From a virus, in IMG/VR virus record IMGVR_UViG_3300022223_000007, positions 1 to 45,106 of that record: 45,106 nucleotides of DNA; one strand, written 5' to 3'. Each line of letters opens with the position of its first letter. Position 1 is the stretch's first letter. Below the pieces are notes generated by a model. The model searched no databases. It had not been told where the DNA came from and worked only from the letters and a program-made list of their open reading frames with translations. Of this stretch, positions 18,301 through 42,385 are shown piece after piece. Position numbers and translations under genes: made by a program.

Positions 18301-19186
18301 ACATCACATTGCCGGTTGTTGCGTTGACCGTAAACAGTCCACCCGTAAAGGTGATCTTGATTTCCACAGCGTTGAGATTGGCCCCGATGGTGGTGTAGGT
18401 CGCAAAGGCTGTGGTCAAGAGCAGGGCAGCATCGTACGTCGTTGCGGCCTTATCGCCAAATATGGTGATGGCGGATTGCGTGTTCGTACCGACCCGCGTG
18501 TCCGTCGAGACACCGGTGAAATTCGCAATGGGCTGATCATTGATTTCGATGAGTGAATTGAACGATAAGATTGGCCCCTCTGATACCGCATAGAGGAGAT
18601 TCAGCACATCGTTGTCGCCCTGTGTTTTTACAAATGCTGAAATCAGATGCCCGCCTACGCGATGCCTTCCATAGATGACTGGTATCGGGGCACCGATGCG
18701 CGTCCCATTCGTAATGCCAGTGAATCCATATGTATTCGATGAGGCTAGATCGCTGCTTGCAACCGGCACGTTGGGCGCACTGGGCTTCCCCGCCATAATA
18801 TTTTCGATGGTGGGAAAGAGCTGCATCCCGATCGGTCCACCGGTCAACAGCCCGGACGCCCACGACGGCAGCCCGGCATGCCGCAGTGCCCAATAGACCC
18901 CAAGTGGCGGGAAGATAATACCGGTAACGATCTTCAGCGTATCGGTCCCGTGGAGGCGTGGGTAGACCACGATTTCCACATTGGGCACGATGAGGTGGGA
19001 GGCCCATCCCTCACGCGGAATGACGCGCCCATTTTCAACAGCTACCCAATCCCCGATCAGGCAATGTGCGGGTACCGCCTCATGCAACCACTGCCCGGCC
19101 CTGCACGGCACAGACTCACGCGAGCGCGACGGCTCCAATGGGTTGGCAATAACGATCAACTGAGGTGAGTTATCCAGCGTAGACAT
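15344..19186 (-). CDS. J: gpJ-like central tail tip protein, gpI-like N-terminus
   Basis: 1280 aa, full length for the family. Residues ~1-140 look like the gpI-like part (a beta-grasp-like start, then a hydrophobic segment about 85-125). From ~150 the GITNGTRIGAPIPVIYG and LLYAVSEGPI motifs mark the conserved gpJ body. Fibronectin-like modules follow (about 830-1060). A Trp/Met-rich stretch (about 1075-1165) has repeated MW pairs. The C-terminal part is probably receptor facing. It follows a K-like NlpC gene with no separate gpI, as expected for a fusion. Confidence 0.88.
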   Translation of the reverse strand: MSTLDNSPQLIVIANPLEPSRSRESVPCRAGQWLHEAVPAHCLIGDWVAVENGRVIPREGWASHLIVPNVEIVVYPRLHGTDTLKIVTGIIFPPLGVYWALRHAGLPSWASGLLTGGPIGMQLFPTIENIMAGKPSAPNVPVASSDLASSNTYGFTGITNGTRIGAPIPVIYGRHRVGGHLISAFVKTQGDNDVLNLLYAVSEGPILSFNSLIEINDQPIANFTGVSTDTRVGTNTQSAITIFGDKAATTYDAALLLTTAFATYTTIGANLNAVEIKITFTGGLFTVNATTGNVMSASVSIEVDYKLVASGTWTTGPRVTYSDARRAVLRRTIRVDGLASGQYDIRVRRTTVESTSTSRIDSVTREAMTEIVNDSYTYPNTALLAVRAVATNQISGGLPRVTADVFGVEIKKFDIVPLLTYITTFTDNPAWIVFDMLTNERYGHGRFTWRRTYETGAIAVTNGDVGFSGSGTGWTVATLRKGDLIHVPSKGCVGVVATIDYGAQTGTFETVWFGTSGTGLTYEVRMNDIDITSFQEWAAFCDELVPNGKGGMEKRATCDFVFDADQENIWSAVLRICGIGHASPIKIGSYIRIKIERASAPVQLFTMATIKRDTFEEIFLPLKERANIFEVQFLNASDGYAQDVVVLEDPLLITNNDQPRRKTVSGYGITRSSHAARLARFNRRVNQYITRTITFEAALDAINCEPGDVFRFQHDVPQWGYGGRVLPGSTATTIVLDHTVTIASGIAYEVLVRHADDTVEIKPVTTGPGDVSVLTISGAWAATPARHEVWAFGEVLISTKPFRIISIERTQDLDARITAVEYSPSVYDDSDGLETNQVQYSALGSLTGPPGNVKDLIMLEQIDLSQSIWVSWSPPGSPHFKAGRVYRTDSGIPVLIGESTNGSLAISDAVPGELVRVAVTSVSGAGIESSLAIAPVAEIIRTSIFPPDVPTLVLEGDRLRWNYPNPPRDLAGFIVRFRPGTSKAWESATPAHTNVILGTDLQIFRRSGIQTYLVKAVDQYGNESVAAKAVTVTFDAAETENIVVDTNYRTLGWPGVTTGGQVIGGDLRATSSTAFWTVDTAPMWSANLNALMWTAAYDEMTYEFTIQPTPDLLDAMLKLPLTMQGEWSIEYLPESSELMWDANLSTPMWSTDSAIMWSPLGGYTQWPGQLDHLKTQPYRIRITGHAGPVQAVLQQLSVVYDVPDLVEILEDVPISAAGSRLALTGSYRQIVSARLTLEDDGGVSAYAKVMDKSLAGPLIQVFTSSDVATTGVVDVVVHGY

Positions 19187-20526: not shown

Positions 20527-22728
20527 TCACCCTAAATGGCCTAGTAGCGCACTGCGATTCCTGAAGAATACATCAATGACCATGCCCTCGAATTGCCGCT
20601 TGAAATTGACGGTCGGCCGCTCATCGCTAGGGGCATTATGGAAGTTGAGAATGACCTTCGGCTCGCGACTCCCTCCAGGGATTCCACCCTCGTTGAGTTG
20701 TGCAAGGGCTTGCATCCCCCGCCGGCTCAACACCCCCTCGCCTGGCGTAAGCATCGCCCGGACAGTATCCTGGTTGCCTGCTCCGATGACGGGTCCGCCT
20801 GACGCAAACTTCAACCCCCCCAAAAGCCCACCGGCATCGACACTGCCGCCACCACCACCACCGCCAAACAAGCCACCAATCCCAAACCCTCCGAACCCGC
20901 CCGTGATGCCCTTGAGGACCAGCATGGTCGCAAGCTGAGCCGCCACCTGTGCAATCATCTGCTTGGCAAAATCGGCAAAGCTCTTGAAGAGATCTTTCAT
21001 GGATTTGATCTTGTTATCCATGATGTCGAAAAAGAAGTTTCTGAATGCGCCTTCCATCATCTGGGCTGTCCGTCTGGCCAGATCTGCGGCAAACCCAAAC
21101 GCTGACTGTGTATCCTCGATGTATTTCTGCAGGCCCATCCGCCACCCTAAGAAGATGTCCCCACCGAATTGCTGGTGGATAGCCGCGAGCTTTGTGAGTG
21201 ATTGCAGCTCGATTGTCTCGCGCTCCTGAGCCGTCAATGCCGTTTGGTCCAAGATCGCATCGGCCTTCAATGATTCATGATTGTCCCATGCCTGCAAGAG
21301 CTTGTCGGCTTCCTCAGTCGTGATTTTCAACTGGCTCGCCATGTTTGCCCGCAACAGGTCAAGCTGATGCTCCATGCGTAACTCGGTTGAGGCTCCCACT
21401 TGGTTATCGTAATCGATCCACGCCTGCACGTTTTGAATCAGCCCGGCTCGCTCACGCTCCTGCGCGGCATCGCGCGTGCGCACCATGCTTTGAGTCTGAT
21501 CAATAATGAATCGGCCCTTGCGCTCTTCTGCTGCCTCATCTTCTCGGCGGAACTGCTCTTGCCGATCGAACGCCAAAAAGAACTCGCTGAGCTGTCCCTG
21601 TCCACCCAACAGCTTGTTGCGAATCTCTAGGGCGCTGTTTTGACTCTGGAAGATATCGAGCAAGGCTTTCCCAAGCTTCTCCTGTTCCTTCCCGGCCTTT
21701 TTCTCGTCGGCATTGCCGATCGTTGAGCGAATCTGCGGCTTGCTCGCGCTCAACTCAGCAGATCGGCCTTTCGGATTAAGGAGATCTTCAGCAAGGGGAT
21801 GCTCCAAGAGAAATAACTTCTTGCTCGACTCAGCCTCAATTTGCTTGATCCTGGCTCCCAGCTCGGCAAAGTTCAGCTTTCCACGAAGAAAATCGATGTT
21901 TGCCGCTACCTCTTTGATGAGCGTCCCGAACAGGATGATATGCTGATTGACCCCTTTGAAAAATGAATTCAGTGCCCCCGCTATCGGACCAGTCCCGAGA
22001 TCATTCATCAGCGAGAGCAGCTCTGTGAGTGGCCCCAACATGAACTTGCCGATGGTGAGCGAGAACCCTTTGGCTTGCGCTTCCAGCCTGGTGATTGAAT
22101 CGTTGAACGCTTCCGATGCCCTGGCCGTGTCCTCGTCCATCACAAGGCCAAGCTTCTCGGCTTCGGCCATCAGCTCCGTAATGCTGGCCTTCCCGCCATT
22201 CAGTAACGGAATCATCTCGGCCCCGGATTTACCGAGCAACTTCATGGCAACTTCGGTCTTACCAGCGCCATCCTCCGTCTTGCTGAATACATCCGCTACT
22301 TCGAGCAGCACTTGCTCCATCGGCTTCAATTTGCCGTTTGCATCCGTGGCAGAGAGCCCGACGCGGGTGAACGCCTCATGCCCTTCCCCGGCACCTTGGG
22401 CGCTATCGACCATTGCCCGCGAGAGGGCCATCAGCCCTGTTTGGAGTTGTCGATTGTCCACGTCAGCCAGCTTTGCCGCGTGCTGCAGTCCGGCCAGCGA
22501 TCTGACATTGATTCCCACTTTCTGAGAGGTTTTAAAGAGTTCGTCGCCATAGTTCGCCGTGCTTTTCGTAATCGCAAACAATGCTGTGCCCGCTGCCGCG
22601 AGTTGTGTGCGCCAGTCCTGAATGAACTTATTGAATGAACCTAACGCGCCCTGTGAGCTTTTTAGCTCTTTCTGAAACTCATCAGCGACGAGCTTGAGGA
22701 CTAGGGCTAATTCACGATTCTCAGCCAT
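20527..22728 (-). CDS. Tape measure protein
   Basis: 733 aa. Long, helical protein that sets tail length. The N-terminal part has the conserved GDELFKTSQKVGINVRSLAGL stretch common to phage tape measures. A Gly-rich segment (GGFGGFGIGGLFGGGGGGG, about residues 620-640) lies near the C-terminus. AAGGAATGCA precedes the ATG. The next downstream genes are the M/L/K/J-like tip genes. Confidence 0.88.
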   Translation of the reverse strand: MAENRELALVLKLVADEFQKELKSSQGALGSFNKFIQDWRTQLAAAGTALFAITKSTANYGDELFKTSQKVGINVRSLAGLQHAAKLADVDNRQLQTGLMALSRAMVDSAQGAGEGHEAFTRVGLSATDANGKLKPMEQVLLEVADVFSKTEDGAGKTEVAMKLLGKSGAEMIPLLNGGKASITELMAEAEKLGLVMDEDTARASEAFNDSITRLEAQAKGFSLTIGKFMLGPLTELLSLMNDLGTGPIAGALNSFFKGVNQHIILFGTLIKEVAANIDFLRGKLNFAELGARIKQIEAESSKKLFLLEHPLAEDLLNPKGRSAELSASKPQIRSTIGNADEKKAGKEQEKLGKALLDIFQSQNSALEIRNKLLGGQGQLSEFFLAFDRQEQFRREDEAAEERKGRFIIDQTQSMVRTRDAAQERERAGLIQNVQAWIDYDNQVGASTELRMEHQLDLLRANMASQLKITTEEADKLLQAWDNHESLKADAILDQTALTAQERETIELQSLTKLAAIHQQFGGDIFLGWRMGLQKYIEDTQSAFGFAADLARRTAQMMEGAFRNFFFDIMDNKIKSMKDLFKSFADFAKQMIAQVAAQLATMLVLKGITGGFGGFGIGGLFGGGGGGGSVDAGGLLGGLKFASGGPVIGAGNQDTVRAMLTPGEGVLSRRGMQALAQLNEGGIPGGSREPKVILNFHNAPSDERPTVNFKRQFEGMVIDVFFRNRSALLGHLG

Positions 22729-24415: not shown

Positions 24416-25426
24416 CTAGCGATAAATCGCCCGCGCCAGTGAGGTCATCCACGGGAACCCACCGGTATCGACCGCGCCATAGAACATATACAGCGTGGCC
24501 GTGTCTTCATGGAACAACAGCGAGGGAGACGTAATCGATGCCACCTCTCCGACGCTTGCCCCGCCGAGGGTGAGCACGTCGGGGTAGGTTTCGTATGGTC
24601 CGAGCGGGCTAAACGCTCGTCCGATTGTAACGGCGTCATTTCCGCCGCCGTCCACAACCACCCCGGCACGATAGTAAAAGCCGTCCGGCCCCTTTTCGAT
24701 GTGTGCCTCAACCCCGAAAATATCGTTCCATGAGAGCGAGCCCTGCTTGACCCATGTCGTTCCGTTGTTCGACGAGGTGGCATACATGGTAGTCACAGCG
24801 GGGTCTGGCGAGTTCGGCGAATCGCCCCATCCAGTGTAGACCATGTATAGCACCCCGTTGTATTCAACGATGGATGGCGAGGTCATGGCCGAATCATCGT
24901 CGGAGCCACCGGCCCCAAGCGCCACAACCGGCGTGGTTTCGCGCGTGTACGGACCGAGCACATTGCTCGCTGAAATCGCTCGATAGATTTGCGCGACGTA
25001 GGCTCCCTCAGCCGTGCCGTCGTAACCGATGTAGTAGATGTGATGCGCCCCGCCTGGCGTCTTGTAGTAAAACGCCGTTTCCTGGTTGAGTTGGCCGGCT
25101 GCCGGACCTGCCCCACTGAGTACGCGATGATCGGAGTACTGCGCGCTTTCAACCGGAAGCCATGTAATAAGATCGGTCGAAATCGCCATTCCGATCGCCT
25201 GCGAGTCTGATCCTGAATCAGTGGTGTAGACCATCCGATAGGCATCTTCGGCTTCGGTGACCACATGCGGGTCACCGGCGAAGTTGCCATCCTCTCCGCC
25301 GAACAGTGGTGCGGTATAGTGGCGTTGGAATTTCGTCAAGCCTGAAAAATCAACGGAGCCAGAGAGTCCACACCCAAGCATCACGATTCCCCCGACTATG
25401 CTGAGACCGAGCCGTTTCCACGTCAT
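24416..25426 (-). CDS. Predicted lipoprotein, beta-propeller glycosidase-like
   Basis: 336 aa. A lipoprotein signal is visible (hydrophobic helix, then MLGCG with Cys19). The body has repeated beta-strand blades with AGDPHVV, TSPSIVEYNGVLYMVY and TSPSLLFHEDTATLYMFY, as in five-bladed propellers of GH43/GH32-like families. The Asp in AGDPHVV is a possible catalytic base. A lipid anchor is odd for a protein encoded among tail genes. Substrate unknown; it may bind sugar rather than cleave it. Confidence 0.65.
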   Translation of the reverse strand: MTWKRLGLSIVGGIVMLGCGLSGSVDFSGLTKFQRHYTAPLFGGEDGNFAGDPHVVTEAEDAYRMVYTTDSGSDSQAIGMAISTDLITWLPVESAQYSDHRVLSGAGPAAGQLNQETAFYYKTPGGAHHIYYIGYDGTAEGAYVAQIYRAISASNVLGPYTRETTPVVALGAGGSDDDSAMTSPSIVEYNGVLYMVYTGWGDSPNSPDPAVTTMYATSSNNGTTWVKQGSLSWNDIFGVEAHIEKGPDGFYYRAGVVVDGGGNDAVTIGRAFSPLGPYETYPDVLTLGGASVGEVASITSPSLLFHEDTATLYMFYGAVDTGGFPWMTSLARAIYR

Positions 25427-25427
25427 G

Positions 25428-28157
25428 TCAATGCCCCATCGATGATTGTGGATCTTGCACGAGGACCAACGGTAACGGCACAGTGTAGGTACCGAGTGCT
25501 GATCCGTCGTCCCGTAACAGAATGCATGTAAAACTGGTGTTGCGCGTCACACTGTTGCCGCTAGTGAGTTGGTAATCGATTTCCGTATGTGTCCCGGCTG
25601 GCATAGCCGGAAGGATGATCGGAATAGTGTCATTCCGCGCCGTGGACCCTGGCGCGAAGGTGCCCGCGAATCGCTGACTCGTTGGCGTCCCGGTGCCCGG
25701 AATCGTAGGCTCTGCTGTAGTCCCATAGTAGGCGATATGTCGCCCGTTGAATGTATTTTGCACCCGAATGTACTCTCCGGCGTTTTCTCGGCAGTAGGGT
25801 GCCACGCCAGTCGGCACTGATGTATCGTTCACCACGGCCACCTTAAACCGCACGCGGAAGGCTCCATTGGGGCCGATGCGGGCCGGTTCGTTGTCGAGGC
25901 ACAGAGGGCCCAATGAGAGTTCGTTGTTCGCGGCTTGACCGTGCAGGCCTTCGATGCGGTAGGCTGTTATTTCAAATGCACTCGGCCCAGGACCACCTGG
26001 AGATGGCGGCACAATCGGGACCGCCACGATGCCCCAGGCACGCAAGCCGCCAAGGAGGAACGACTCTTCCTGCCCATCCGCGCCGCTCTGAGTGGACGAC
26101 CCAATACGCAGCGAGACGGACGGATGTTGGTGATCCGTCGTGAGGGTCTGATGCGGCCCAGCTGAAAGTGTCACGGTGGAGCCCGTGCCGGTACCGACAA
26201 AAGTTCTGGTGATCTCGTCCGCATTGCTATTCGATGTGACCGTGGGAGTCACGCTGACGCCAACCGTTTGTGCCACGGCTCCATAGCTGCCGATGTTCGA
26301 TTCCTCAACCGATTCCATGATCCATCCACCGTTCACCGTTGTGCTGAATGTCGGCGTCAAGGTGCAGGTACCAGAGGTGGGATTGACCAACCCGAACACC
26401 CGTACGCTGCGATGCCCTGCCGTCGTGTCAGTGAATAAATGTGTCGCTAACGGCGGGATATCCTCGCTTCCGCAACTGCTGGTGACTGATGTCGGGAACG
26501 CCTGCGTACCGACGCCATTCCAGATTGTGGTGAGAAACACCGTCAACCCTCGATTCGCCGAGGCGCTGATGGTGCGGGTATGAGCTCCATCAAGATCTGT
26601 GGTGCGATGGTGTGATGGAGGATTCGTAGGAGCCCCACCTCCACCGGAGGAGAATGACGAGGGGAACGGGCAGCCGCCCGTGTTCACGTTCATGCGGACA
26701 TGGAAATCAAAGAGCGATTCGCCGGCCACGCGATTGACGCCATCGAGATCGGCTTCCCCGTGCGGGAATTCTGCTGTGGTAGGGTCCCAGAGCGGCACTT
26801 GCAGCGTACCTCCAGACCCGTCGAGCAACACCCCATCCACATAGCGATAAAGTATCCGTGCCCCCGCGCCTGCTGTTTCAGCGGCAGATCCATCAGGAGC
26901 CCACAGCCCTTTGCAGGTGCCGAATCCAGGATTGGCTGTGGTTGACGAGCCCCAATTTGATGGCAGGCTGGGGTTGTAGGCGGTCCCGTTGCCGTTCGAT
27001 AAATTGTTAGACCCGCTCCAGTTCGTGATTTGCGTCACGGTGTAGCCGAGATCCTGCACCCCCGATACCACGCTATTCGTAATCGTCGCCGAATTCTCGC
27101 TTGGCGTAGCTCCAACGTTGTCGAAATCGTCTAACGTGATGCCATCCTGGCCAGTCACACCTGTGCCAAGTACGGTGATCCGGTTGATCTGGTAGTTGAC
27201 GCAACTCGAACAACGGATGCCGGTTGATTGCCACGCATAATCGACGATCGCAATATCTTGGAGGAGTCCATCTTTTGGTGTGTAGTTCAGTCCAGGATTA
27301 CTGCGAGCGTTGGCATAGATGCCATTGCCAGTCGTGCATTTGTAGCAGATTGACCCCAGCACACTTGACCCGTGCATTAAGATAGAGTTGAAGAACGGCG
27401 AGTTTTGCTCCACGAGATACCCGCCGTGGGTCGTGCCGTCCATGATGATATTTTCGGCGATGCAGTTAGTGCAGGGATACATCGACACAACCGCATCGGC
27501 CCGGCCCACACCAGGCCCGACACCGCCACTGATCGCGCCACCTCGCGGGTTGCAGTATTGCCGTCGCACGACAATCCGCTCAGAGCGCCACAGCTCAACG
27601 CAATGGCGACCGTAGGTATACACCTCGTTGTCTTCCACGAGCGAATCAGTAGAATCGTGAATCGAGATCGCGTGCAGGTTGTTATAGCGGTTGGGGTTGA
27701 CCACAACATTATTTCGTACCGTGTAGTGATTCCCGTTGACCATCCTGATGGGGTTCCCACCTGAGCCACCGCTGTTGTCGGTTGAGCGCAAATAGAGACC
27801 ATCCACAATGATGTAGGCGCTGTTGTTGAACTGCACCGCTCGACCGGTACCGTTGTCAAAGATTTTCGCCTTGCGCTGATTCAGCGCGGTGACGATCAAC
27901 TCATTGCCCGCCGTACAGACCACTGCATTCGCGCTGATCTTCCCAGTACTGGTGCCATCTCCATAGGTCCCGTTGAGCAGGTGCAACGTATCGCCGCACC
28001 ACGCCCGCGAGGCATTGATCGCATGGGCGAAGGTCAAAAACGGTGCACCCGTAGACAGACCGTCGTTGCTGTTACTGCCGGTAGGGGAAATGTAATAGCT
28101 CGTGGCATGCGCGATCGAGGGCATGAGCAGCATGAGCAGGAGCAGTAGAATTTTCAT
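25428..28157 (-). CDS. Exported right-handed beta-helix protein
   Basis: 909 aa with a Sec signal peptide (residues 1-18, cleavage near AHA). Residues ~20-400 are a parallel beta-helix of the pectate-lyase/DUF1565 kind (many Asn/Asp/Gly turns: NNVVVNP, DNEVYTYGRH). Residues ~520-720 form a beta-sandwich-like domain with a similar cadence to the 33052-34122 protein, and a further beta domain ends the protein. It could be a polysaccharide depolymerase or fibre, but the signal peptide is unexpected. No catalytic residues can be named with confidence. Confidence 0.65.
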   Translation of the reverse strand: MKILLLLLMLLMPSIAHATSYYISPTGSNSNDGLSTGAPFLTFAHAINASRAWCGDTLHLLNGTYGDGTSTGKISANAVVCTAGNELIVTALNQRKAKIFDNGTGRAVQFNNSAYIIVDGLYLRSTDNSGGSGGNPIRMVNGNHYTVRNNVVVNPNRYNNLHAISIHDSTDSLVEDNEVYTYGRHCVELWRSERIVVRRQYCNPRGGAISGGVGPGVGRADAVVSMYPCTNCIAENIIMDGTTHGGYLVEQNSPFFNSILMHGSSVLGSICYKCTTGNGIYANARSNPGLNYTPKDGLLQDIAIVDYAWQSTGIRCSSCVNYQINRITVLGTGVTGQDGITLDDFDNVGATPSENSATITNSVVSGVQDLGYTVTQITNWSGSNNLSNGNGTAYNPSLPSNWGSSTTANPGFGTCKGLWAPDGSAAETAGAGARILYRYVDGVLLDGSGGTLQVPLWDPTTAEFPHGEADLDGVNRVAGESLFDFHVRMNVNTGGCPFPSSFSSGGGGAPTNPPSHHRTTDLDGAHTRTISASANRGLTVFLTTIWNGVGTQAFPTSVTSSCGSEDIPPLATHLFTDTTAGHRSVRVFGLVNPTSGTCTLTPTFSTTVNGGWIMESVEESNIGSYGAVAQTVGVSVTPTVTSNSNADEITRTFVGTGTGSTVTLSAGPHQTLTTDHQHPSVSLRIGSSTQSGADGQEESFLLGGLRAWGIVAVPIVPPSPGGPGPSAFEITAYRIEGLHGQAANNELSLGPLCLDNEPARIGPNGAFRVRFKVAVVNDTSVPTGVAPYCRENAGEYIRVQNTFNGRHIAYYGTTAEPTIPGTGTPTSQRFAGTFAPGSTARNDTIPIILPAMPAGTHTEIDYQLTSGNSVTRNTSFTCILLRDDGSALGTYTVPLPLVLVQDPQSSMGH

Positions 28158-28160
28158 AGG

Positions 28161-29405
28161 TTACTCACTTAAAGATTCCCCGAGAAATAGGATGAGAAAT
28201 CCGAGATGGTGTAGCGTAGCCGTTGGGGTGGTCGTCCCGGTTGCATCTAGCTCATATTTAAAATAGAGCATATCGCCACCAGCTGGCGTACCGTTACACT
28301 GGATCGGAGTGTCAATCGTGAAGAAATCGTTTTTCGAGCTGCCACCGACGGATGAGGCGGTAATCGGGACCTCTGTTGCCCACGTCGATGATGGAGCCAC
28401 GCCGTTGCCGCGCACCTGACAGGTAAAATGGCCCAGGAGGGCAGCGGTATTCACGGCGGTCTGTACCACGACCTGGATAACGGTGATCTGCTCACCGGCC
28501 CACTTAAAATCCATTTTGAACGACCCATCCAAGCGTGAGCCGTTGTTGTCCGCGCAGATAAAGGTTCTGATACGTGGACCACTGTTCAGTACCGCCCCTG
28601 TCGCGCTCGTTGGGCAGTTTGTACCGTCTCCAATGAGGCGATCTGCCGGTATCCATTTCGAGTAGAGAATATAATACCCGGCTCCAACCGTGTATTGCAG
28701 CGCTGCTGTTGGTGCGCTGGGATCAAAGCGGATCATTTGCGTATTCGCCGCGCCATTGACCTGGAAATATCTGGTATTGGGGAGGCGCACAATCTTGTTG
28801 CAATCATCCACCACTCCACCTGATACACACGTGATGTAGGTATTCCCATCACTATGCTGAAAGACAGTGGCTCCATTCGCCGCCTGTCCACCGAGCCCCA
28901 AAATATCGAGCCGCCGCGCCTCGCTGGTGCCGGTAATGATGTTCCCACTTGGTAAGTCAAAATTCGCATCAAGCCCCTGGGCCGACCCACCTCCACTGCC
29001 ACCGCCACGGCTAATCACAGCCGTAGTAGCATGCCCCGTAACCACAATGGTTCCGCTCGTGTAGCTAGTCACCGGCGCTCTAAAACTAAAAGCACCGCCA
29101 GGGCACTCCCAGTAACCCGGCTCAACCGCCTGGATAGACACAATTGATCTATCGTTGGCGTCTGTGCATTGCACGGGAACGTAACTTGTCGCATCTTTGG
29201 TTTTTTTCTGGAATTCAACGATTCCCTGGAATGTCCCTTCGATCTGCACAGCGACCGTGGAGTAATAGCCCGCCGGCAACTCGGACCCGTTCGCTGCCCC
29301 GGTCGCCCCACTATGGAATACCCACGGGATGGCAGATTCTGCCCCGATGCGATAGGGCAGGAGTACCATCACCACAATGATCATCCCTCGTAACCCGCTA
29401 ACCAT
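28161..29405 (-). CDS. Exported beta-rich virion-locus protein, 414 aa
   Basis: Sec signal peptide (about residues 1-22) then an N-terminal beta domain, a Gly/Ser linker (RGGGSGGGS near 134-142) and a larger C-terminal beta domain. The start at 29405 with GAGGGGTGGCAAC is preferred; an ATG-equivalent at 29438 would overlap the frameshifted chaperone end. It lies directly after the tail chaperone, where the tape measure would be expected. Unrecognised. Confidence 0.6.
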   Translation of the reverse strand: MVSGLRGMIIVVMVLLPYRIGAESAIPWVFHSGATGAANGSELPAGYYSTVAVQIEGTFQGIVEFQKKTKDATSYVPVQCTDANDRSIVSIQAVEPGYWECPGGAFSFRAPVTSYTSGTIVVTGHATTAVISRGGGSGGGSAQGLDANFDLPSGNIITGTSEARRLDILGLGGQAANGATVFQHSDGNTYITCVSGGVVDDCNKIVRLPNTRYFQVNGAANTQMIRFDPSAPTAALQYTVGAGYYILYSKWIPADRLIGDGTNCPTSATGAVLNSGPRIRTFICADNNGSRLDGSFKMDFKWAGEQITVIQVVVQTAVNTAALLGHFTCQVRGNGVAPSSTWATEVPITASSVGGSSKNDFFTIDTPIQCNGTPAGGDMLYFKYELDATGTTTPTATLHHLGFLILFLGESLSE

Positions 29406-29416
29406 GTTGCCACCCC

Positions 29417-30144
29417 TCAGTTTGGACACGTTCGGCACGCCTGCGCCAACCCATCACCGAAATATTGCACGCATTCTTGAATGCATGATCCTCCGCAGAA
29501 CTCACCAATCTGTTGCTCGTGGTCATGCGCTTGACGCTCTTTCATCCATGGGAGTTCAACTCCGAACCAACTGAGGATGGCCCGGTCAACGAATTCGCGC
29601 TCAAGGCATCGCCTGAGATAGGGGTCTGAGTCGTGTGGCCCCCATTCTGTGAGGATGGCGCTGAGCTTGGTGACATCCCCGCCGCTGAGGGCGACAAGAG
29701 CGTGCTCGACCCAGCCTCCCCAGGTGCACGGGACGGTACGCCCCCCGCGCTTGGCGTCTGGTCGAACTGCTTGACCAGCGTTTTCCCCGGAATAAGCATC
29801 GCGAGGTGTTCCCGTTGACAGAACTGAAAAAAATGTGGGGCAAATACGGCCACCTCCGCGCCGGTCAACTCTGCAGCAAATTCCTCTGACCGCGCGTAAA
29901 TCGTCGCCCATGGCTGCCGGGAATGGTCCGCGCGAGTCACCCCGTCAGGCAGCAAACTGATTGCCATGATGAGCGGCCCCTTCTCCCTGAACAAATCCCA
30001 AATCGTTGCGAAGTCCAACAACTCCAAATCGATAGTTTTAAAGATATGTTCGGCAAGCCATTTATTTTGCTGCCATGACGGCGGCTCAAGTCTGTACGCA
30101 ACGCCATTAATCGTATAGATTTTCTGTGTGAGATCTTGGCTCAT
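29417..30144 (-). CDS. Tail assembly chaperone, -1 frameshift product (gpGT-like)
   Basis: Join of residues 1-135 of the zero frame with a 107-residue extension read in the -1 frame from CGT at 29740 to the stop at 29417, giving 242 aa. The extension has globular-looking sequence (WVEHALVALSGGDVTKLSA, later a Cys-rich end). The switch site is GGGGGGC at 29746-29740. It would bridge tape measure and tail tube as gpGT does. Confidence 0.7.
29542..30144 (-). CDS. Tail assembly chaperone, zero-frame product (gpG-like)
   Basis: 200 aa. In lambda-like phages gpG and a frameshifted gpGT coat the tape measure during tail assembly. Position directly after the tail tube gene fits. Residues 1-135 look globular; from there on the zero frame is Ser/Pro/Gly-rich and low in complexity, which suggests that most of the meaningful sequence lies in the other frame. 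Confidence 0.75.
   Translation of the reverse strand: MSQDLTQKIYTINGVAYRLEPPSWQQNKWLAEHIFKTIDLELLDFATIWDLFREKGPLIMAISLLPDGVTRADHSRQPWATIYARSEEFAAELTGAEVAVFAPHFFQFCQREHLAMLIPGKTLVKQFDQTPSAGGVPSRAPGEAGSSTLLSPSAAGMSPSSAPSSQNGGHTTQTPISGDALSANSLTGPSSVGSELNSHG
29740..29746 (-). other. Programmed -1 frameshift slippery site
   Basis: G|GGG|GGC is exactly in the X|XXY|YYZ register of the zero frame (codons at 29745 and 29742). A CGTGC/GCACG stem (29730-29726 with 29705-29701) begins nine bases downstream, a normal spacing for a stimulatory element, though it is only five pairs. Confidence 0.7.
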
Positions 30145-30151
30145 GGTCCCT

Positions 30152-31090
30152 CTAGGTGAACGCGATACTTAACTCATCATTGCCTGCCGTGCGCTTCATC
30201 CCAAAATCTGAGTTCAGTGTGGCGATCCCGTTACGATCCCCCTCGGCAATCTTGGTGTATTGGGCCTTAGGGATGTTGAACGTCACAATGTTGCCAGCCG
30301 TGAGCCCATGTTTCCACGTCAACACCCCGGTCGTGTTGCCTTTCCATCGCCCATAGAAATCATGTGTCGCGACTAACTCATCTTCAGGGTCAAAACTGCC
30401 TTTCGGCTCACGCGCTGTCAGGAGGGTCGAAATGAATCCGGTTGACTGATTGATATCCCCTCTCCGCTGCAACGTATTGGCCATGTCGAATTGCAGCTGT
30501 GAGACGAACGCTTGGAATGAGGCAATGCTGAACGCTGCCGAGAGTAATGGGAATGGAATGGTTGTCTCAACGCCTGATGGCGTTGGGAGTGCAACATCGG
30601 TGACATCTGACCCCACCCCTGCGAACTCGAATTCAAACATCCCAGGTTCACCGCTTTTCCCGGCATACTTCATGTTCCCACGAGCCCCCGTGATCAACTT
30701 GCGAAGCCCATCACGATACGTCGCAAGCGTCATTGTCGGAATGCTGGCTAAGGCACTGATCGGCGCATACGTCACGCTGGTCGATGCCACAACCGTTTCG
30801 CCAAATCCGCATGCCTTGAGATACTTGCCACAGGCTGGCGCTGTGCCCGCCGTTCCCGACCCCTTGACTTCGACCTTAAACGCGATGGCACCGGCTTGCG
30901 TGGTGGCAATATCCACGTACGGCGATAAAGAATTATCGAGGAACTTTCTCACGAACATCGGAATATCCGCCTCGAATTTCGGCTCCATGATCAAGTTATT
31001 GGCATCGGCCCCGACGAGTGTTTCTGCCGTGCCCTCTACGGCTTCTTCCTTGCCCGCCAGCACCACGCGATTGCTTAAGATACGTCCCAT
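30152..31090 (-). CDS. Major tail tube protein
   Basis: 312 aa. Placed between connector/fibre genes and the tail chaperone, as lambda gpV. The sequence has the tail-tube pattern: MGRILSNRVVLAGKEE at the start, a central YLKACGFGETV segment and a beta-rich body. It should polymerise into the tail tube. Identification rests on order plus these patterns. Confidence 0.78.
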   Translation of the reverse strand: MGRILSNRVVLAGKEEAVEGTAETLVGADANNLIMEPKFEADIPMFVRKFLDNSLSPYVDIATTQAGAIAFKVEVKGSGTAGTAPACGKYLKACGFGETVVASTSVTYAPISALASIPTMTLATYRDGLRKLITGARGNMKYAGKSGEPGMFEFEFAGVGSDVTDVALPTPSGVETTIPFPLLSAAFSIASFQAFVSQLQFDMANTLQRRGDINQSTGFISTLLTAREPKGSFDPEDELVATHDFYGRWKGNTTGVLTWKHGLTAGNIVTFNIPKAQYTKIAEGDRNGIATLNSDFGMKRTAGNDELSIAFT

Positions 31091-31130
31091 CGTCTCCCCT
31101 CCTTCTGTCAGCCCGCAAGCTGTAGGTTAC

Positions 31131-31301
31131 TCAGTCCCGTTCCGACCGCTTCGGCGGCTCCACCAGCGTAGCACTCCCGCCGGCGAGCAATTGTCGCAAG
31201 GCCGACGCCGGTGCGTCCTTCGGCGACTCCAAACAGTCACCAGGCTCACCCAGCTTCTCCCCCTTCGGATTGCAATAGGTACAGGTCAGTTTGACCTTCA
31301 T
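31131..31301 (-). CDS. Small CxxC protein, 56 aa
   Basis: Starts MKVKLTCTYCNPKGEKLGE: one C-x2-C pair and a further Cys at residue 24, a possible zinc site. A GGGAGGTAGCC site precedes the ATG. It lies between the tail tube and repeat-protein genes. No function known. Confidence 0.6.
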   Translation of the reverse strand: MKVKLTCTYCNPKGEKLGEPGDCLESPKDAPASALRQLLAGGSATLVEPPKRSERD

Positions 31302-31303
31302 GG

Positions 31304-31921
31304 CTACCTCCCGCTGACCGCCTTGATCGTCGCCGTGGACCCACTCACCCGCAGCATGGCTGCCGACGACCCGGAGACCCGTCGCAGCACAACCACATCC
31401 ACCAACACCACCCCGGCTTGTGTGACCGCCTGCGCGAGATCAGTCTCCTCGATCTGTCCAAGCGTCCGGCGTTTTACCCGCACGAGCGCCTGCGCCAGTT
31501 CGCCGTCGATCGCGATCCCGAGCTGCCGCAGCCGCGAAGCCGTGAGCTGGTGCGCCTGCTGGCTCTCGACCACCTGCCCGCTTGCCAGCCGCTTCGCGGA
31601 AGCGACCACCTGCCCCAGCGCCGACTCTGATGCCTGCCCCAGTACAATGGTTTTGTTGCCGCTCGCCTGGACCGCCTGCGCGAGATCAGTCTCCTCGATC
31701 TGTCCAAGCGTCCGGCGTTTTACCCGCATGAGCGCCTGCGCCGACTCGCTGCTAGTCACCTGCGTCACGGCCCGTTGCTTGGCATGCGTGACCGGCTGTG
31801 CCAGCGCCGACTCTGACGCCTGCCCCAGTACAATGGTCTGCGACGCCACGCCTCCGGATGCCAACGAGGTCCAGGCCCCTGTCCTGTCCGCCGTCTGCGT
31901 ATGCGACCAATTGATGATCAT
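31304..31921 (-). CDS. LGQ-x-x-E repeat protein, 205 aa
   Basis: About seven imperfect ~20-residue repeats, e.g. LGQIEETDLAQAV (twice), LGQASESALAQ and LGQASESALGQ, with basic spacers (RVKRRT). Similar repeats occur in uncharacterised phage virion-locus proteins. They could form a fibrous or solenoid element. Two 72-base DNA copies differ at one base, showing recent duplication. No N-terminal signal. Confidence 0.65.
   Translation of the reverse strand: MIINWSHTQTADRTGAWTSLASGGVASQTIVLGQASESALAQPVTHAKQRAVTQVTSSESAQALMRVKRRTLGQIEETDLAQAVQASGNKTIVLGQASESALGQVVASAKRLASGQVVESQQAHQLTASRLRQLGIAIDGELAQALVRVKRRTLGQIEETDLAQAVTQAGVVLVDVVVLRRVSGSSAAMLRVSGSTATIKAVSGR
31425..31742. repeat. Direct repeat of 72 bp (31425-31496 and 31671-31742)
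   Basis: The two copies lie 246 bases apart in the same frame of the LGQ repeat gene and differ at one position (C/T). A further ~30-base near-repeat (31620s and 31806 onward, around AGTACAATGGT) belongs to the same array. Confidence 0.9.
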
Positions 31922-32670
31922 CGATCGGTCACCACTGTAATCAGTGTGGGATCGGCCCCGGTGGCCGTAAATTTTAGCGTGATGACATTGCCGTTCACAT
32001 CGCTCGCTGCTAGGTCGAGCTTGTAGATGCCGGCCGAAACTTCAGCGACGGCATTGGCGCAGGAGGCAAAGGCGGCCCCGTCAATGGAGCGCTCTGCCGT
32101 GACGGTCGCTCCGGACTTGCCAGACACATGATTGGCACTGTCGCGCATGAAGAACTCAAAGGCCGACAAGGCTGTGTTCTTTTTGATGCTCGCTGTCGTC
32201 GACAGCGTCACTTCAGGTCGCCCTCCGCTGAACGTCCCGTTGGTTCCACCGAATTGCACGGTGTTGACATCCAGATTATCGCCACCATCACAAAGGGCAT
32301 CGTTGATGGCTGCGGCTCGAAAGCCGATGATCGGACCGCGCCAGGGCAAGACGCCGGTGGCCAATCCTGTAAACCATCCATACCCTTCGGTGTCGTTATT
32401 GATTGATCCACCACCAGAGGCTGGAATCTCAATCGTATACATCCCATCGCCTTGATGGGTCCAGTCATAGACACCGCCTGTGGTCGGTGTGACGGCGGTT
32501 TGCGTAAATGCCCCGCCACTCGCGACGAAGTTCCATACGAGATCCATCCCTGAGGCGTTATACGCCACAGCCGTCTCGCGGGTCTTGAAATCGGTATCAT
32601 CAGTCAAGGGGAAGATGTTGACAGGAACTTCGCTTAACGCTGTATCAACATCCATGTAGATATCAGGCAT
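31918..32670 (-). CDS. Virion-associated protein, 250 aa
   Basis: Beta-rich protein of a type frequent in tailed-phage structural operons (motif ALSEVPVNIFPLTDDTDFK and NNDTEGYGWFTG). Probably displayed on the virion. Coupled to the repeat gene by an ATGA overlap. No catalytic motif. Confidence 0.6.
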   Translation of the reverse strand: MPDIYMDVDTALSEVPVNIFPLTDDTDFKTRETAVAYNASGMDLVWNFVASGGAFTQTAVTPTTGGVYDWTHQGDGMYTIEIPASGGGSINNDTEGYGWFTGLATGVLPWRGPIIGFRAAAINDALCDGGDNLDVNTVQFGGTNGTFSGGRPEVTLSTTASIKKNTALSAFEFFMRDSANHVSGKSGATVTAERSIDGAAFASCANAVAEVSAGIYKLDLAASDVNGNVITLKFTATGADPTLITVVTDR

Positions 32671-32673
32671 GTT

Positions 32674-33042
32674 TTAGACTCCTGTCGCTTGCGTTCCTGC
32701 GACCACCCCAAGATTCACGAGCCCAGTTTCCAGAATATTTTGTGAGGCCCTGATCACGTTATCCGTGACAAAGGTATTCTGTGGGCCTGTCAAGACCACC
32801 TGGCGGTAGAAATCCAGCTGCTGGACCTGGATCGTCAGCTTGGCTGTGACGCAATTGATCGTCATGGAACCTTCAACGGCCTGCATCTCAGGATTCGAGG
32901 TGGAGGAAATCTGAACCCGCGCCGTCACCACCTTGTTGACGGTATCGTAGTTAATCGAGGTAAGGACAAACTTGGCATACGATATCGGGGCATCCCCTCC
33001 AAGAACACTATTCACTTGTGCCGGTGTCGTTAAGGTAATCAT
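32674..33042 (-). CDS. Hypothetical virion-operon protein, 122 aa
   Basis: Beta-strand-rich, with no membrane segment. Likely a structural or assembly protein from its context only. Not recognised. Confidence 0.5.
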   Translation of the reverse strand: MITLTTPAQVNSVLGGDAPISYAKFVLTSINYDTVNKVVTARVQISSTSNPEMQAVEGSMTINCVTAKLTIQVQQLDFYRQVVLTGPQNTFVTDNVIRASQNILETGLVNLGVVAGTQATGV

Positions 33043-33051
33043 CGGTTCCTC

Positions 33052-34122
33052 TTATTGGTTGGCCACGTAATGGTACCTGCTGGATGCTGCTCCTCCGCCC
33101 CCACTAGCTTCCTTGAACACCACCACACCAGTCACCCAGGTTGACGCGCCGATGGTCCAGCTCGCCGAATCGGTCGTACCGGAGGCCACAATCCGTTCAA
33201 TGGCCGCATGCTGAATGCGTGCCGAAGCGTCCTCGTCCTCACCTAAGAGGGAGAACGCAGCATCTTCGGTAAGAGCAGGCGTGCCACTATGGTCAGTAGT
33301 CAGCGCGCCAATAAACACCGCTGCTCCCGCAGACGTGGCGTTCCCTGAATCTGCGGCTGCCCCTGTTCCTGTCCCTGTGTTTGAGGCTTCTGTCCGTGAA
33401 CTATCCCAAGTACCGCTATATTCCGCTGCGACTACAGATCCGTAGGTTCCTCCAGATGGATGCGCCACCTGAAGAGTTAATGACCCCGACCCTGTTACCA
33501 GGACCGACCAGATTCCCACCACTTGGTGCGATCCTGCCGCTGCAGAATAGTGGAGCGTTGGACTGCCGATTGTCGCGGTCCCTGCTGATTTGGTCAGGTC
33601 CCCAGCTATGTATAACGCGCTATCAAATGAGCGCCAGCGCGCAGCAGACACCACGAGAAGACTTCCGGACGAGACATTGCTACTAAACGCACGAGTCATA
33701 TTCGTAACGCCGCTGTGCGTAGTAATCCCATTTTGTAGACGTGAGGCCATTACAGGAGGCTCCGGTTCGGCCAAAACTTGCAATTGGAACGGTTGACCAG
33801 GGACATAGCCGGATTCAAACAATGGGAACGGGACATCCGGCTCAGCCTGTCGGCCTGCTCCATTCTGGGCGTAGAGCACACACGTATATTGCCCAGGGCC
33901 TGGCACCACATCCGTGATCGGAGTGCTGGTCGCAGGCATGGGGACCGTGACACTGTTTCCTCCACAGGTAAGGACATGGCTCTCCGGTGCGTTCTCTGTG
34001 GTGAACGGCTGGAGGTCCCACTGGAACGCTCCCTGTAAGTGGGAGACATAGACCGGCGTTTGCGCCAGGGCGCTCCCACTCCACAGGATGAGGCTACAGA
34101 GCCCAGCATAGAGGCCTCGCAT
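33052..34122 (-). CDS. Exported two-domain protein, 356 aa
   Basis: Sec signal peptide (1-20, cleavage near ALA). Residues ~22-115 form a fibronectin-like domain with a Cys pair (VLTCGGNSVTVP and YTCVLYAQN), closely related to the neighbour at 34122-34502. Residues ~130-345 form a larger Ser/Thr/Ala-rich beta domain. The stop/start junction with the upstream gene is adjacent. Role unknown; it could be an adhesion or receptor-modifying protein. Confidence 0.6.
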   Translation of the reverse strand: MRGLYAGLCSLILWSGSALAQTPVYVSHLQGAFQWDLQPFTTENAPESHVLTCGGNSVTVPMPATSTPITDVVPGPGQYTCVLYAQNGAGRQAEPDVPFPLFESGYVPGQPFQLQVLAEPEPPVMASRLQNGITTHSGVTNMTRAFSSNVSSGSLLVVSAARWRSFDSALYIAGDLTKSAGTATIGSPTLHYSAAAGSHQVVGIWSVLVTGSGSLTLQVAHPSGGTYGSVVAAEYSGTWDSSRTEASNTGTGTGAAADSGNATSAGAAVFIGALTTDHSGTPALTEDAAFSLLGEDEDASARIQHAAIERIVASGTTDSASWTIGASTWVTGVVVFKEASGGGGAASSRYHYVANQ

Positions 34123-34502
34123 TACGGCACGATAATTTGCGGGTTCGTCGGGCTCAACGGCGGATAGCCAGCCTCAAAGCCGGGAAAGGCCTCCGTGGTA
34201 CTTGAGCCAAACACATTTTGAGCATGCACGGTGCAATTGTAGACGCCCGGAGCCGGGACGATCGAACTCACTAACACGGAGTTGTTCGGGACCATGCCTA
34301 TGGGCACCGTCACACTATTCGCGCCACAGGTGACAATGTGAGAGTCTGCCGCGCCGTGTGTGGCGTCAGCTGCCGGGATCGTCCACGTCAGGGTCGCGGT
34401 TGTTAGCGGGATGGCAATCACGGTCTGCGCGTGGCCGGAGGCAGTACAGAGCCCGGCAATAATCACACAGGTGATAGCGGCGACGAGGCTTTTCTGGCGC
34501 AT
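34122..34502 (-). CDS. Exported fibronectin-like protein, 126 aa
   Basis: Sec signal peptide (about 1-25, cleavage near GHA). The rest is one domain with IVTCGANSVTVP and YNCTVHAQN, paralogous to the first domain of the next gene. The two cysteines probably form a disulphide, which needs the periplasm. A GGGAGAAAC site precedes ATG 34502. Confidence 0.6.
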   Translation of the reverse strand: MRQKSLVAAITCVIIAGLCTASGHAQTVIAIPLTTATLTWTIPAADATHGAADSHIVTCGANSVTVPIGMVPNNSVLVSSIVPAPGVYNCTVHAQNVFGSSTTEAFPGFEAGYPPLSPTNPQIIVP

Positions 34503-34593
34503 GGTTTGTTTCTCCCAGTTGTGCGGTCAGGCACGGTTGACAGATTCGATCAACACTCCCATCGTCTTGCTGGCACCACGGGCACCAGGACAT
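34366..34593 (-). CDS. Possible small zinc-ribbon protein
   Basis: Begins right after the upstream stop (TAAATG). The first ~30 residues (SWCPWCQ, ICQPC) match small CxxC proteins common in phages. The later part overlaps the exported gene at 34122-34502 by 137 bases and has extra cysteines, so the frame may be real only in part or not translated. Confidence 0.35.
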   Translation of the reverse strand: MSWCPWCQQDDGSVDRICQPCLTAQLGETNHAPEKPRRRYHLCDYCRALYCLRPRADRDCHPANNRDPDVDDPGS

Positions 34594-35064
34594 TTAGCTC
34601 GCCCGGAAGAATCCCGCCGCCGCGATCTGCGCCGTGATATCGCTGCCGTCTGGCGTGACGGCAAAATCGTGACAGGTCAAGGGAATGATCGCGCTATCGG
34701 TCCCGCCCGTCGTATCTGGGTCGTAACAGATCAGGAGATCCGTCCAGGCCGTGCCGGCGGCCACGCCGGTCCAGGTCTGATCTGGGATGTCCAGATCCAC
34801 CCGGTCGTTCGTATCGTCGATCGACAGCGCCGCGATGTCTGCGTCGGTCAAGGTCTTGCGGGCATAGTTCGTATTCGTCACCTCGTTGGCCGTGCCGCCG
34901 AGGAGTGCAGCCAGGTCGTCCCGATCGCGCATCGTGGCGTCGGTGTCACCGTTGGCGTCGATCACCACGACGATCAGTGCGCTGTTGGCGGGATCGTTGG
35001 ACTTGACCCGATTGTAGAATTCCGCGACGCGCCCCTTGGCGATGTTGAACACAAAATCAGCCAT
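34594..35064 (-). CDS. Virion-operon protein, 156 aa
   Basis: A beta/helical protein typical of uncharacterised genes between head completion and tail tube genes in many tailed phages; motif VVVIDANGDTDATMRDRDDL. Structural role inferred from place. No signal peptide. Confidence 0.55.
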   Translation of the reverse strand: MADFVFNIAKGRVAEFYNRVKSNDPANSALIVVVIDANGDTDATMRDRDDLAALLGGTANEVTNTNYARKTLTDADIAALSIDDTNDRVDLDIPDQTWTGVAAGTAWTDLLICYDPDTTGGTDSAIIPLTCHDFAVTPDGSDITAQIAAAGFFRAS

Positions 35065-35073
35065 GTGCCCCTC

Positions 35074-35733
35074 CTAGGTTGCTTTGCCCAGATTTGTCAC
35101 CTGGAAATGAAAGAGAAACGCGGCCGTTTTGCCACCGCCATACGTGGCCAGCACATAGGCCTCATGCCATTCCGTTGAGCCGATCGCCGTCGCGGTATCC
35201 ACGATTGCATTGTCTGCTGGTTGCAGCTGTACCTGTAACCCTCTGGTAGCGGTCCCGCCTGAGAGATATGCCCCTGTTCCCGATGAACCGATCAACTCCA
35301 CGTGGTCAACCCCCACCACATCGATAAACCAGTCTCCATTTGCCCCTTTAATCCCTCGTATCCCTCGTATCCCAATGAAATCACCAGCATTGTACCCATG
35401 CGCCGTGATCTGCAGCCGGACCCTGCCGTAATAATCGTCCTGGGCTGTGTTGATTGTCGCGCCGACAACCGCTTTACCATTCCCAATAGTGCCTCTCACC
35501 CCATCATTCAAGATATCTGTATTGCTCACGCTGTTGATTCCACCAGACGGGACCGCCGTATCGTCGCGCAAGTGCAGCCAGAGCCGTAATGACGATAATT
35601 GGCTCGCTTGGATCGGCACCCCGGCGTTATCCACGAGGATGCCGCGCAGCGTCCAGGCCGTGTTCTCCATCGGCACAAACTGCCGTTGATCCGGCGTCGT
35701 GAGAATGTACGTATTGTCGGCAACGGCAGGCAT
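35074..35733 (-). CDS. Virion-operon protein, 219 aa
   Basis: Beta-rich with a repeated IGIRGIRGIKGANGDWF stretch in the middle. No known family to me. Its place after the terminator-like gene suggests a structural or fibre-associated role. Confidence 0.5.
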   Translation of the reverse strand: MPAVADNTYILTTPDQRQFVPMENTAWTLRGILVDNAGVPIQASQLSSLRLWLHLRDDTAVPSGGINSVSNTDILNDGVRGTIGNGKAVVGATINTAQDDYYGRVRLQITAHGYNAGDFIGIRGIRGIKGANGDWFIDVVGVDHVELIGSSGTGAYLSGGTATRGLQVQLQPADNAIVDTATAIGSTEWHEAYVLATYGGGKTAAFLFHFQVTNLGKAT

Positions 35734-37324: not shown

Positions 37325-38263
37325 TTAGGCCACCGCATTCTCGATGAAATATCCAAGGTCGGACGCAATGATCTTTTCATCGCTGTTAAATCCAACCTTG
37401 ATATAGTGCGAGCCCTTTAAGCCCTTCTTTTGGTCGAACATTCTGGTCGTGACTCGTGCCGTCTCAACAAATGTTTTCCCAAACGTCACGCTACGGATAC
37501 CGGGGTTGCCCGCCTTGATGTGCAAGGCCGCCATATGCTTCCCCCACAGCCGCGCAAACGTTGCAGTCTGCCCTTCCTTGGTCGTGATGTAGCGTGATCG
37601 CCCGATCAAGATACGATCGACCTCAAACAGGTTGGCGACCGCGCTCGGTGTGGCAAGTCCACCATTTAAGTTGGTACCTGCAATAGCCTTCACGGCATCC
37701 AAAATTTCTGGCAGCCGGCGGAAAACCAGCCATGCGTCAATACCAAAGATCAAGGTATTGGCACGCATAAAACAGCCCTCCACAGCATCCTGCACGTTCT
37801 TAATCGGGTTGTCGGCTGAATCGCTCCACTGGCTGGTGCCGGAAAGTGTCACCTTGTTCCCGACCGGGTACGTCCCTGCCGCAAATACGATTCCTGATAC
37901 CCGTTGCTCTTGCGACACATCTAAACACTGATTGATAAAATCGTTCGCGTCACTTTCAGGGGCAAGTGGGCTATCGGAATTATCAATTTCTTCCTGTGCC
38001 ACATAATCGGCAAGGGCATGATCTTTGACCGAATAGTTATCCGTTGACACCGCAAAGTCGATTTCATTGGCTTCCGATTTCGGACCGATCTTATCGTCAT
38101 AAATACGGAATCCGTTTTCTTTCGCGTATTTCCAGTAGAGGTCACTCCGTTTATTGACCTTCACTTCCGGCATAACTTCCCGCCAAATCATGTCCTCGTT
38201 CCGGTACTGCACGGACATGTTGGTTAGAACAGAATCTATATGGAGGTCTCGTGCTTCTGCCAT
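37325..38263 (-). CDS. Major capsid protein
   Basis: 312 aa. HK97-fold-type capsid pattern: N-terminal arm, then a WREVMPEVKVNKRSDLYW stretch, and later FGIDAWLVFRRLPEILDAVK and the AALHIKAGNPG strand. It follows the decoration and protease/scaffold genes, as lambda gpE does. AAGGAGACCTAGATT precedes the start. Confidence 0.85.
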   Translation of the reverse strand: MAEARDLHIDSVLTNMSVQYRNEDMIWREVMPEVKVNKRSDLYWKYAKENGFRIYDDKIGPKSEANEIDFAVSTDNYSVKDHALADYVAQEEIDNSDSPLAPESDANDFINQCLDVSQEQRVSGIVFAAGTYPVGNKVTLSGTSQWSDSADNPIKNVQDAVEGCFMRANTLIFGIDAWLVFRRLPEILDAVKAIAGTNLNGGLATPSAVANLFEVDRILIGRSRYITTKEGQTATFARLWGKHMAALHIKAGNPGIRSVTFGKTFVETARVTTRMFDQKKGLKGSHYIKVGFNSDEKIIASDLGYFIENAVA

Positions 38264-42148: not shown

Positions 42149-42385
42149 TTAGGAAATCCCGCTCGAAATAACGCGCCGCCTGGTCGGTATGATCGGCTGG
42201 ATTGTGCCCGCGCTGAGCCTACACTGCTCATCGTAGGCCTCAACGTCGGCCTTGGGGATACGGTACTGCCTCTGGATGAGGCGCACGTTGGGGAAGAGTC
42301 CGCGACTGATCCACTCGTAGACGGTTCGGACTTGTTTGATCCGGAAATACGTGGCCACCTCACTTGGCGTCAGAAGCTCTTGCAT
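42149..42385 (-). CDS. Excisionase-like helix-turn-helix protein, 78 aa
   Basis: PSEVATYFRIKQVRTVYEW and RQYRIPKADVEAYDE match the MerR/excisionase-like HTH_17 fold. Placed inside the packaging genes, directly after the large terminase, it may help bind a packaging or regulatory site rather than excise a prophage. Coupled by a TAATG overlap to the terminase stop. Confidence 0.72.
   Translation of the reverse strand: MQELLTPSEVATYFRIKQVRTVYEWISRGLFPNVRLIQRQYRIPKADVEAYDEQCRLSAGTIQPIIPTRRRVISSGIS

Follow-up and report, generated by a model that had tools for sequence, protein, structure and literature searches.

Five genes packed among the head and tail genes of this virus are, to judge from their sequences, a real, little-described phage tool kit and not a sequence accident, because relatives repeatedly carry export-tagged proteins at the same places. 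Their products are very probably exported and, given export, a role at the envelope, in the matrix or on glycans seems fairly likely. The reading that we prefer, with slightly better than even chances, is that they are late-expressed exported accessory proteins of a probable Nitrospira siphophage, which would act on glycans of the host envelope or matrix.

The window, that is the whole 45,106-base virus record analysed here, is of siphovirus type and has its late operon on the minus strand, spanning TerL to J according to PHROG profile matches. The features needed below are the following.

42385-44331, minus strand, TerL (profile match)
40198, minus strand, portal (profile match)
38750, minus strand, protease (profile match)
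37325-38263, minus strand, MCP (profile match)
36756, minus strand, head closure (profile match)
35743, minus strand, tail terminator (profile match)
34594..35064, minus strand, phrog_26662 protein of unknown function, no signal (PHROG E 8e-42), marks a cargo slot
34122..34502, minus strand, Z, predicted secreted fn3/Ig-like protein, 126 aa (signal score, AlphaFold2, L002 homologue)
33052..34122, minus strand, Y, predicted secreted protein, 356 aa (signal score, L002 homologue)
30152-31090, minus strand, tail tube (phrog_290; isolate phages have homologues with that annotation), the anchor for finding relatives
28161..29405, minus strand, X, predicted secreted protein, 414 aa (signal score, L002 and L018 homologues with signals)
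25428..28157, minus strand, predicted secreted protein, 909 aa, probably of beta-helix type, 17 Cys (signal score, domain model)
24416..25426, minus strand, GH43-like protein, 336 aa, predicted outer-membrane lipoprotein (Pfam, lipobox)
20527-22728, minus strand, tape measure protein (TMP; several PHROG tape-measure families), end of the second cargo slot
15344-19186, minus strand, J, with minor tail genes
13519, VanY-like endolysin-like gene, separate from the five exported-protein genes

A sequence-only reading had placed five ORFs with export signals among structural genes, and this was borne out. All five are open at these coordinates on the minus strand, a codon-usage gene caller gave the identical five starts, and the PHROG neighbours together with the isolate-phage tail tube homologues place them packed inside the TerL-to-J late operon. 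Wrong start codons were excluded for all five by the codon-based gene calling and for X also by the position of its ribosome site, as GAGGGGTGGCAACATG lies upstream of this ATG and speaks against the GTG of a longer ORF ending at 29438. Z and Y come after the phrog_26662 gene (34594), on the upstream side of the tail tube gene; X, 25428-28157 and 24416-25426 sit between the chaperone and TMP. The overlapping ORFs 29542-30144 and 29417-29911 (window 29417-30144) resemble a frameshifted G/GT tail chaperone pair. Within the two cargo clusters genes are 1-15 bases apart or overlap, the larger gaps (136 and 91 bases) lying outside them; promoter-like sites are not in excess (4 versus 8.2 expected), and cargo GC (0.576) is similar to that of the other late genes (0.564). 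Together the five genes take up about 6.4 kb of the 45-kb record. Lambda lom and bor are lysogenic-conversion morons, and morons have their own promoter and an odd composition. The window cargo resembles lom and bor in that accessory proteins of a temperate-type phage are exported, but it matches the late genes in operon packing and GC, and a moron reading was rejected on packing and composition.

Signals had been claimed on all five proteins, and with our own rule set we found four Sec signal peptides and one lipoprotein signal. Each protein starts with a charged n-region, followed by a hydrophobic stretch and then a plausible site for cleavage, and the features of Sec substrates (n-, h- and c-region, cleavage site, retention in homologues) are present in all five under these rules. 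The leader of 24416-25426 is MTWKRLGLSIVGGIVMLG, cut before C; its lipobox reads VMLG followed by that Cys, the only one in the protein, with Gly at +2, and by eye it agrees with the Prosite lipobox pattern. The other four proteins have no lipobox. Their leaders are MKILLLLLMLLMPSIAHA before TS for 25428-28157 (signal score 4.69), MVSGLRGMIIVVMVLLPYRIGA before ES for X (4.27), MRGLYAGLCSLILWSGSALA before QT for Y (3.17) and MRQKSLVAAITCVIIAGLCTASGHA before QT for Z (3.71), the last cut being placed by eye where the script put it earlier. A sixth ORF with a signal peptide (window 6864-8075, 403 aa) lies outside the structural operon and has no Pfam or PHROG match.

Since the predictor gives false positives (19544 and 38310 with low scores, the P-loop protein 9119 with a higher one), we used a score cut of 3.0, chosen after the window scores had been seen, and, as controls, nine isolate phages whose tail tube is homologous. 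Signals were found in 5 of the 31 structural-operon genes of the window versus 1 of 153 in the controls (Fisher p 5e-4; as the close relatives are few and related, the Fisher tests here overstate independence), and in 17 of 204 genes of the window and its relatives; 1% of shuffled proteins scored as signals. For GC-rich relatives genes were taken from codon-usage calls, and the gpI proteins L077 1286 and L120 1473, which start hydrophobic, were left out of the counts because the gpI family begins with a hydrophobic stretch anyway. Over the whole set, the mature parts of signal proteins are also richer in Cys (1.6% versus 0.7%) and poorer in Lys (1.7% versus 4.0%).

The leaders diverge faster than the proteins behind them. 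In X the leader is 19-26% identical versus 60-66% over the first 100 mature residues; the corresponding values are 50% versus 66% in Y, 48% versus 59% in Z and 32% versus 59% between the fn3 proteins of L004 and L011. When neutral drift was simulated in 400 runs for each pair, until leader identity had fallen to the observed value, the simulated leaders still scored as signals in 6, 16, 22, 14, 68 and 13 of 400 runs (1.5-17%), whereas the real ones did so in all pairs except for L011, whose long n-region is beyond the scope of the rule. The signals therefore look functional and kept by selection. With this selection, the Cys-rich and Lys-poor mature parts and the recurrence in relatives, the earlier proposal of export is well supported.

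Relatives were collected by a tail tube search (L002-L010) and a tail tube alignment (L011-L017 and three genome loci). One of the three genome loci is a prophage in a Nitrospira assembly (L018, L023), truncated upstream where the contig ends; the prophage is 73% identical to the window in the tail tube and 60% in J. It runs into bacterial genes, and the host part of its contig matches other Nitrospira genomes at 70-79%. A tail tube of this type was found in only 1 of 79 Nitrospira genomes. By this kinship the window virus probably infects nitrite-oxidising Nitrospira, key nitrite oxidisers of which few viruses have been characterised.

We then looked at the proteins individually. The product of 24416-25426 matches Pfam Glyco_hydro_43 with E 4e-9 (36.7 bits versus a cut-off of 32.2) and, weakly, the solved GH32-type structure 3r4y; by eye, only a DP motif was seen in the putative GH43 domain. 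Secreted bacterial GH43 enzymes likewise combine an export signal with a Pfam GH43 domain following it, but this protein is phage-encoded, lies in a tail operon and is a putative member by its Pfam match. L002 and L018 encode exported beta-helix proteins that match Pfam Beta_helix and NosD, and a model built from these two alone picks up the C-terminal domain of 25428-28157 (E 1e-7); 25428-28157 itself matches neither Pfam family. The same domain occurs in a leaderless operon protein of L183, L189 and L191, fused, by eye, to repeats resembling those of 31304, so modules appear to move between exported and leaderless operon proteins.

X has a conserved N-domain with Cys80 and Cys101 and a variable C-part; an AlphaFold2 model from three sequences (pLDDT 33) was discarded. 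Y has an fn3-like N-domain with Cys53 and Cys81, 62% identical to that of its L002 homologue, which also has a signal, and an unrelated C-part. Z, with Cys59 and Cys90, is a paralogue of Y; at TAATG the stop codon of Z and the start codon of Y overlap. The AlphaFold2 model of Z (pLDDT 79) has mostly fn3 folds among its best structural matches, none with E below 0.001, and its Pfam fn3 match (E 0.058) is below the cut-off; the match is clear in the homologous slot of L004 (E 5e-15). Cysteine pairs had been attributed to two proteins; we instead found conserved pairs in three of the five (X, Y and Z), and 17 Cys in 25428-28157. No enzyme domain was found in Z, Y or X, and Pfam and PHROG profile searches found no lysin domain in any of the five.

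GH43, 25428-28157, the X domain and three exported proteins of relatives had no match in 50,697 phage records; searches of viral contigs with Y, GH43 and 25428-28157 returned no relatives, and the X domain matched L002 alone there and only the prophage among 79 Nitrospira genomes. No GH43 relative was found in 246 genomes of the Nitrospira phylum, an empty answer that is weak evidence.

Among close relatives the slot position is kept while the cargo changes. L002 has homologues of Z, Y and X and two exported proteins where the window has 25428-28157 and GH43; L018 has an X homologue and two other exported proteins, with a non-GH43 exported protein at the place of GH43. In L004, L005, L006, L009, L012 and L015 a block of the 35074 type, including an exported fn3-like gene, stands between chaperone and TMP. 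An exported fn3-like protein is present in all nine slot-spanning members (window, L002, L004, L005, L006, L009, L011, L012, L015), the leaders of L006, L011 and L012 being judged by eye as the rule missed them and that of L009 being lipoprotein-like. None of the fn3-like, X and 25428-type proteins of close relatives is without a leader.

In the window the block 35074/34594/.../31304 (31131-35733) stands before the tail tube, and in most relatives between the chaperone and tape measure genes; compared with L004, L006 and L009, its placement is that of a rearranged late operon. A repeat protein with a short Q-x-E-x-D/S-x-A-Q-type unit directly precedes the tape measure genes or the tail tube (window 31304-31921, L006 12254-13417, L009 10522-11607, L191 7760-8767).

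The export theme recurs well beyond close relatives, as revealed by the products behind the phrog_26662 gene. A search with this protein gave 80 loci, of which 68 distinct ones were used. Signals were found in 18 of 157 genes at positions +1 to +3 versus 8 of 371 at or before it (p 2e-5), and 17 of 56 loci have at least one signal gene at +1 to +3. The exported products are fn3-like in L137, L158, L160, L167, L173, L180 and L201, beta-helix in L128 (Pfam E 1e-7) and PL14-like in L142 (E 1e-4, below the gathering score). This slot offers a simple route to mine further exported proteins. In addition, L183 (2825-3187) and L189 (4585-4947) encode an exported protein of 120 aa that is HNH-nuclease-like by eye (DHVIPL...GG..NMQWL), with no Pfam match; if it is HNH-like, such a periplasmic nuclease could stop superinfecting DNA.

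Taken together, the cargo genes would be transcribed late with the structural operon, judging the timing by operon position. Four products would be exported by Sec, cleaved by signal peptidase and folded in the periplasm, where three of the four could form their conserved disulphides. The GH43-like product would be anchored as an outer-membrane lipoprotein, and the others would stay periplasmic until lysis or be surface-exposed. Late in infection, or after release by lysis, they would most likely act on glycans or other host envelope or matrix material, loosening the matrix around clustered host cells so that progeny could escape and reach new cells. A glycan role is suggested by the GH43 match above the Pfam cut-off in the window and by the exported beta-helix and PL14-like proteins of relatives, which lend weight to polysaccharide cutting among the functions proposed earlier.

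The main rival, unlikely in our estimate, is superinfection exclusion or receptor masking, in which the exported proteins would block adsorption or DNA entry and keep progeny off debris, in the manner of Llp of T5 and Cor of N15 and phi80. One of the five is a lipoprotein, exclusion lipoproteins adjoin tail genes in T5, N15, phi80 and Rtp, and in Alteromonas phage P24 a small gene of lipoprotein-like type directly precedes the tail tube gene; but GH43, beta-helix and PL14-like folds are, to our knowledge, not known from exclusion proteins. The exclusion lipoproteins Llp (T5) and Cor (N15, phi80) and the lipoprotein AH14a_p83, found in a tail gene cluster (PMC9586334, PMC4936722), do resemble the window case as phage-encoded exported lipoproteins among tail genes. 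However, these known ones are single small proteins beside receptor-binding genes or J, whereas here five proteins of 126-909 aa, one of them a lipoprotein, lie far from J, none beside it, and include GH43, beta-helix-type and fn3-like parts. The lipoprotein itself, with 336 aa, lies about 5 kb away from J, in the stretch from the tail chaperone to the tape measure gene, and so has neither the size nor the place of Llp and Cor. Moreover, T5 Llp is described as expressed early (PMC9586334), while the cargo genes belong to the late operon. The host Sec system also serves other late phage proteins, among them SAR endolysins and Sec-exported endolysins like Lys44 of fOg44 (PMC6116005), but these are lysis enzymes.

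The remaining explanations concern the virion or chance. In two-compartment assembly, which we consider quite unlikely, periplasm-folded proteins would dock on tails or heads at lysis as adhesins or spikes. In its favour, the head-tail operon does enclose the genes, the N-domain of X and Y is conserved and their C-part changes, as in tail fibres (in 25428-28157 the conserved part is C-terminal), and fn3 parts of J are hit weakly by an fn3 model of the exported proteins (L019, E 2e-4). The 25428 domain in leaderless operon proteins and the leaders on gpT described below make some link to the virion possible, but a lipoprotein would remain in the membrane, and we know of no tailed phage that assembles in two compartments in this way. 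With tail fibres and depolymerase tailspikes the window proteins share the conserved and changing parts, probable beta-helix or predicted glycan-active domains and the tail operon; they differ in having signals, which tail fibres lack, and in their places, upstream of the tail tube or in the stretch from chaperone to TMP and not behind J. It is highly doubtful that the leaders serve no release and instead target ordinary virion proteins to the membrane or are removed from them, as signal-like leaders with ribosome sites on gpT of L017, L058, L077, L087 and L096 might suggest: real export agrees with the lipobox, the low Lys, the conserved Cys pairs and the domains of secreted-enzyme type, and the fn3-like, X and 25428-type proteins of close relatives are never leaderless. 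That secreted host-type genes were acquired by chance and are unused is extremely improbable. GH43 indeed lacks relatives in the searched viral contigs and phage records, but passive cargo is hard to square with selection on the leaders, with the recurrence of such proteins in nine members, with close packing and a GC like that of the operon and, weakly, with the empty search of the 246 host-phylum genomes.

Exported phage proteins are known mostly singly, either as enzymes of lysis or as exclusion lipoproteins of small size; in the present case one phage lineage has five late genes with export tags apparently under selection and unrelated swaps in the same slots. We found no description of such export-tagged tail-operon proteins in the openly accessible literature searched, which is weak evidence. 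If, as we prefer to think, they act on the host matrix or envelope, they may reveal how phages of slow, cluster-forming bacteria open clusters.

The assumption that no virion protein begins with a leader of this kind did not hold throughout, the exceptions being some Mu-like gpT capsid proteins with a signal-like leader supported by a ribosome site. Therefore, a leader alone is not proof of a non-virion role, and the argument for the window proteins rests on the lipobox, Cys pairs, composition and recurrence. The gpT proteins in question are L017 5339-6346, L058 2233-3264, L077 2866-3915, L087 2974-4011 and L096 2869-3894; their leaders follow a good ribosome site and are 15-42% identical, with 50-69% in the core. 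In L017 and L096 there is no usable start between leader and core, and most other gpT relatives examined begin at the core. The exported tail-operon proteins here and the leaders on these capsid proteins are two possible signs of a still unrecognised route in some tailed phages, very doubtful at present, by which proteins that have passed Sec and folded with disulphides in the periplasm would join or dress the virion only at lysis.

Other signals near head genes were also noticed. A small Cys-containing family with signal peptides lies directly behind gpT (L097 3978-4388, L100 4062-4478, L111 3974-4396, L112 1982-2392), and proteins of 151-154 aa near head genes of deltaproteobacterial prophages have signal peptides (L019 3657-4112, L020 3323-3787). 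Finally, L028 8759-9397, near the genome end, encodes an outer-membrane beta-barrel (Pfam OMP_b-brl, E 8e-10) and is possibly a Lom-like conversion gene.
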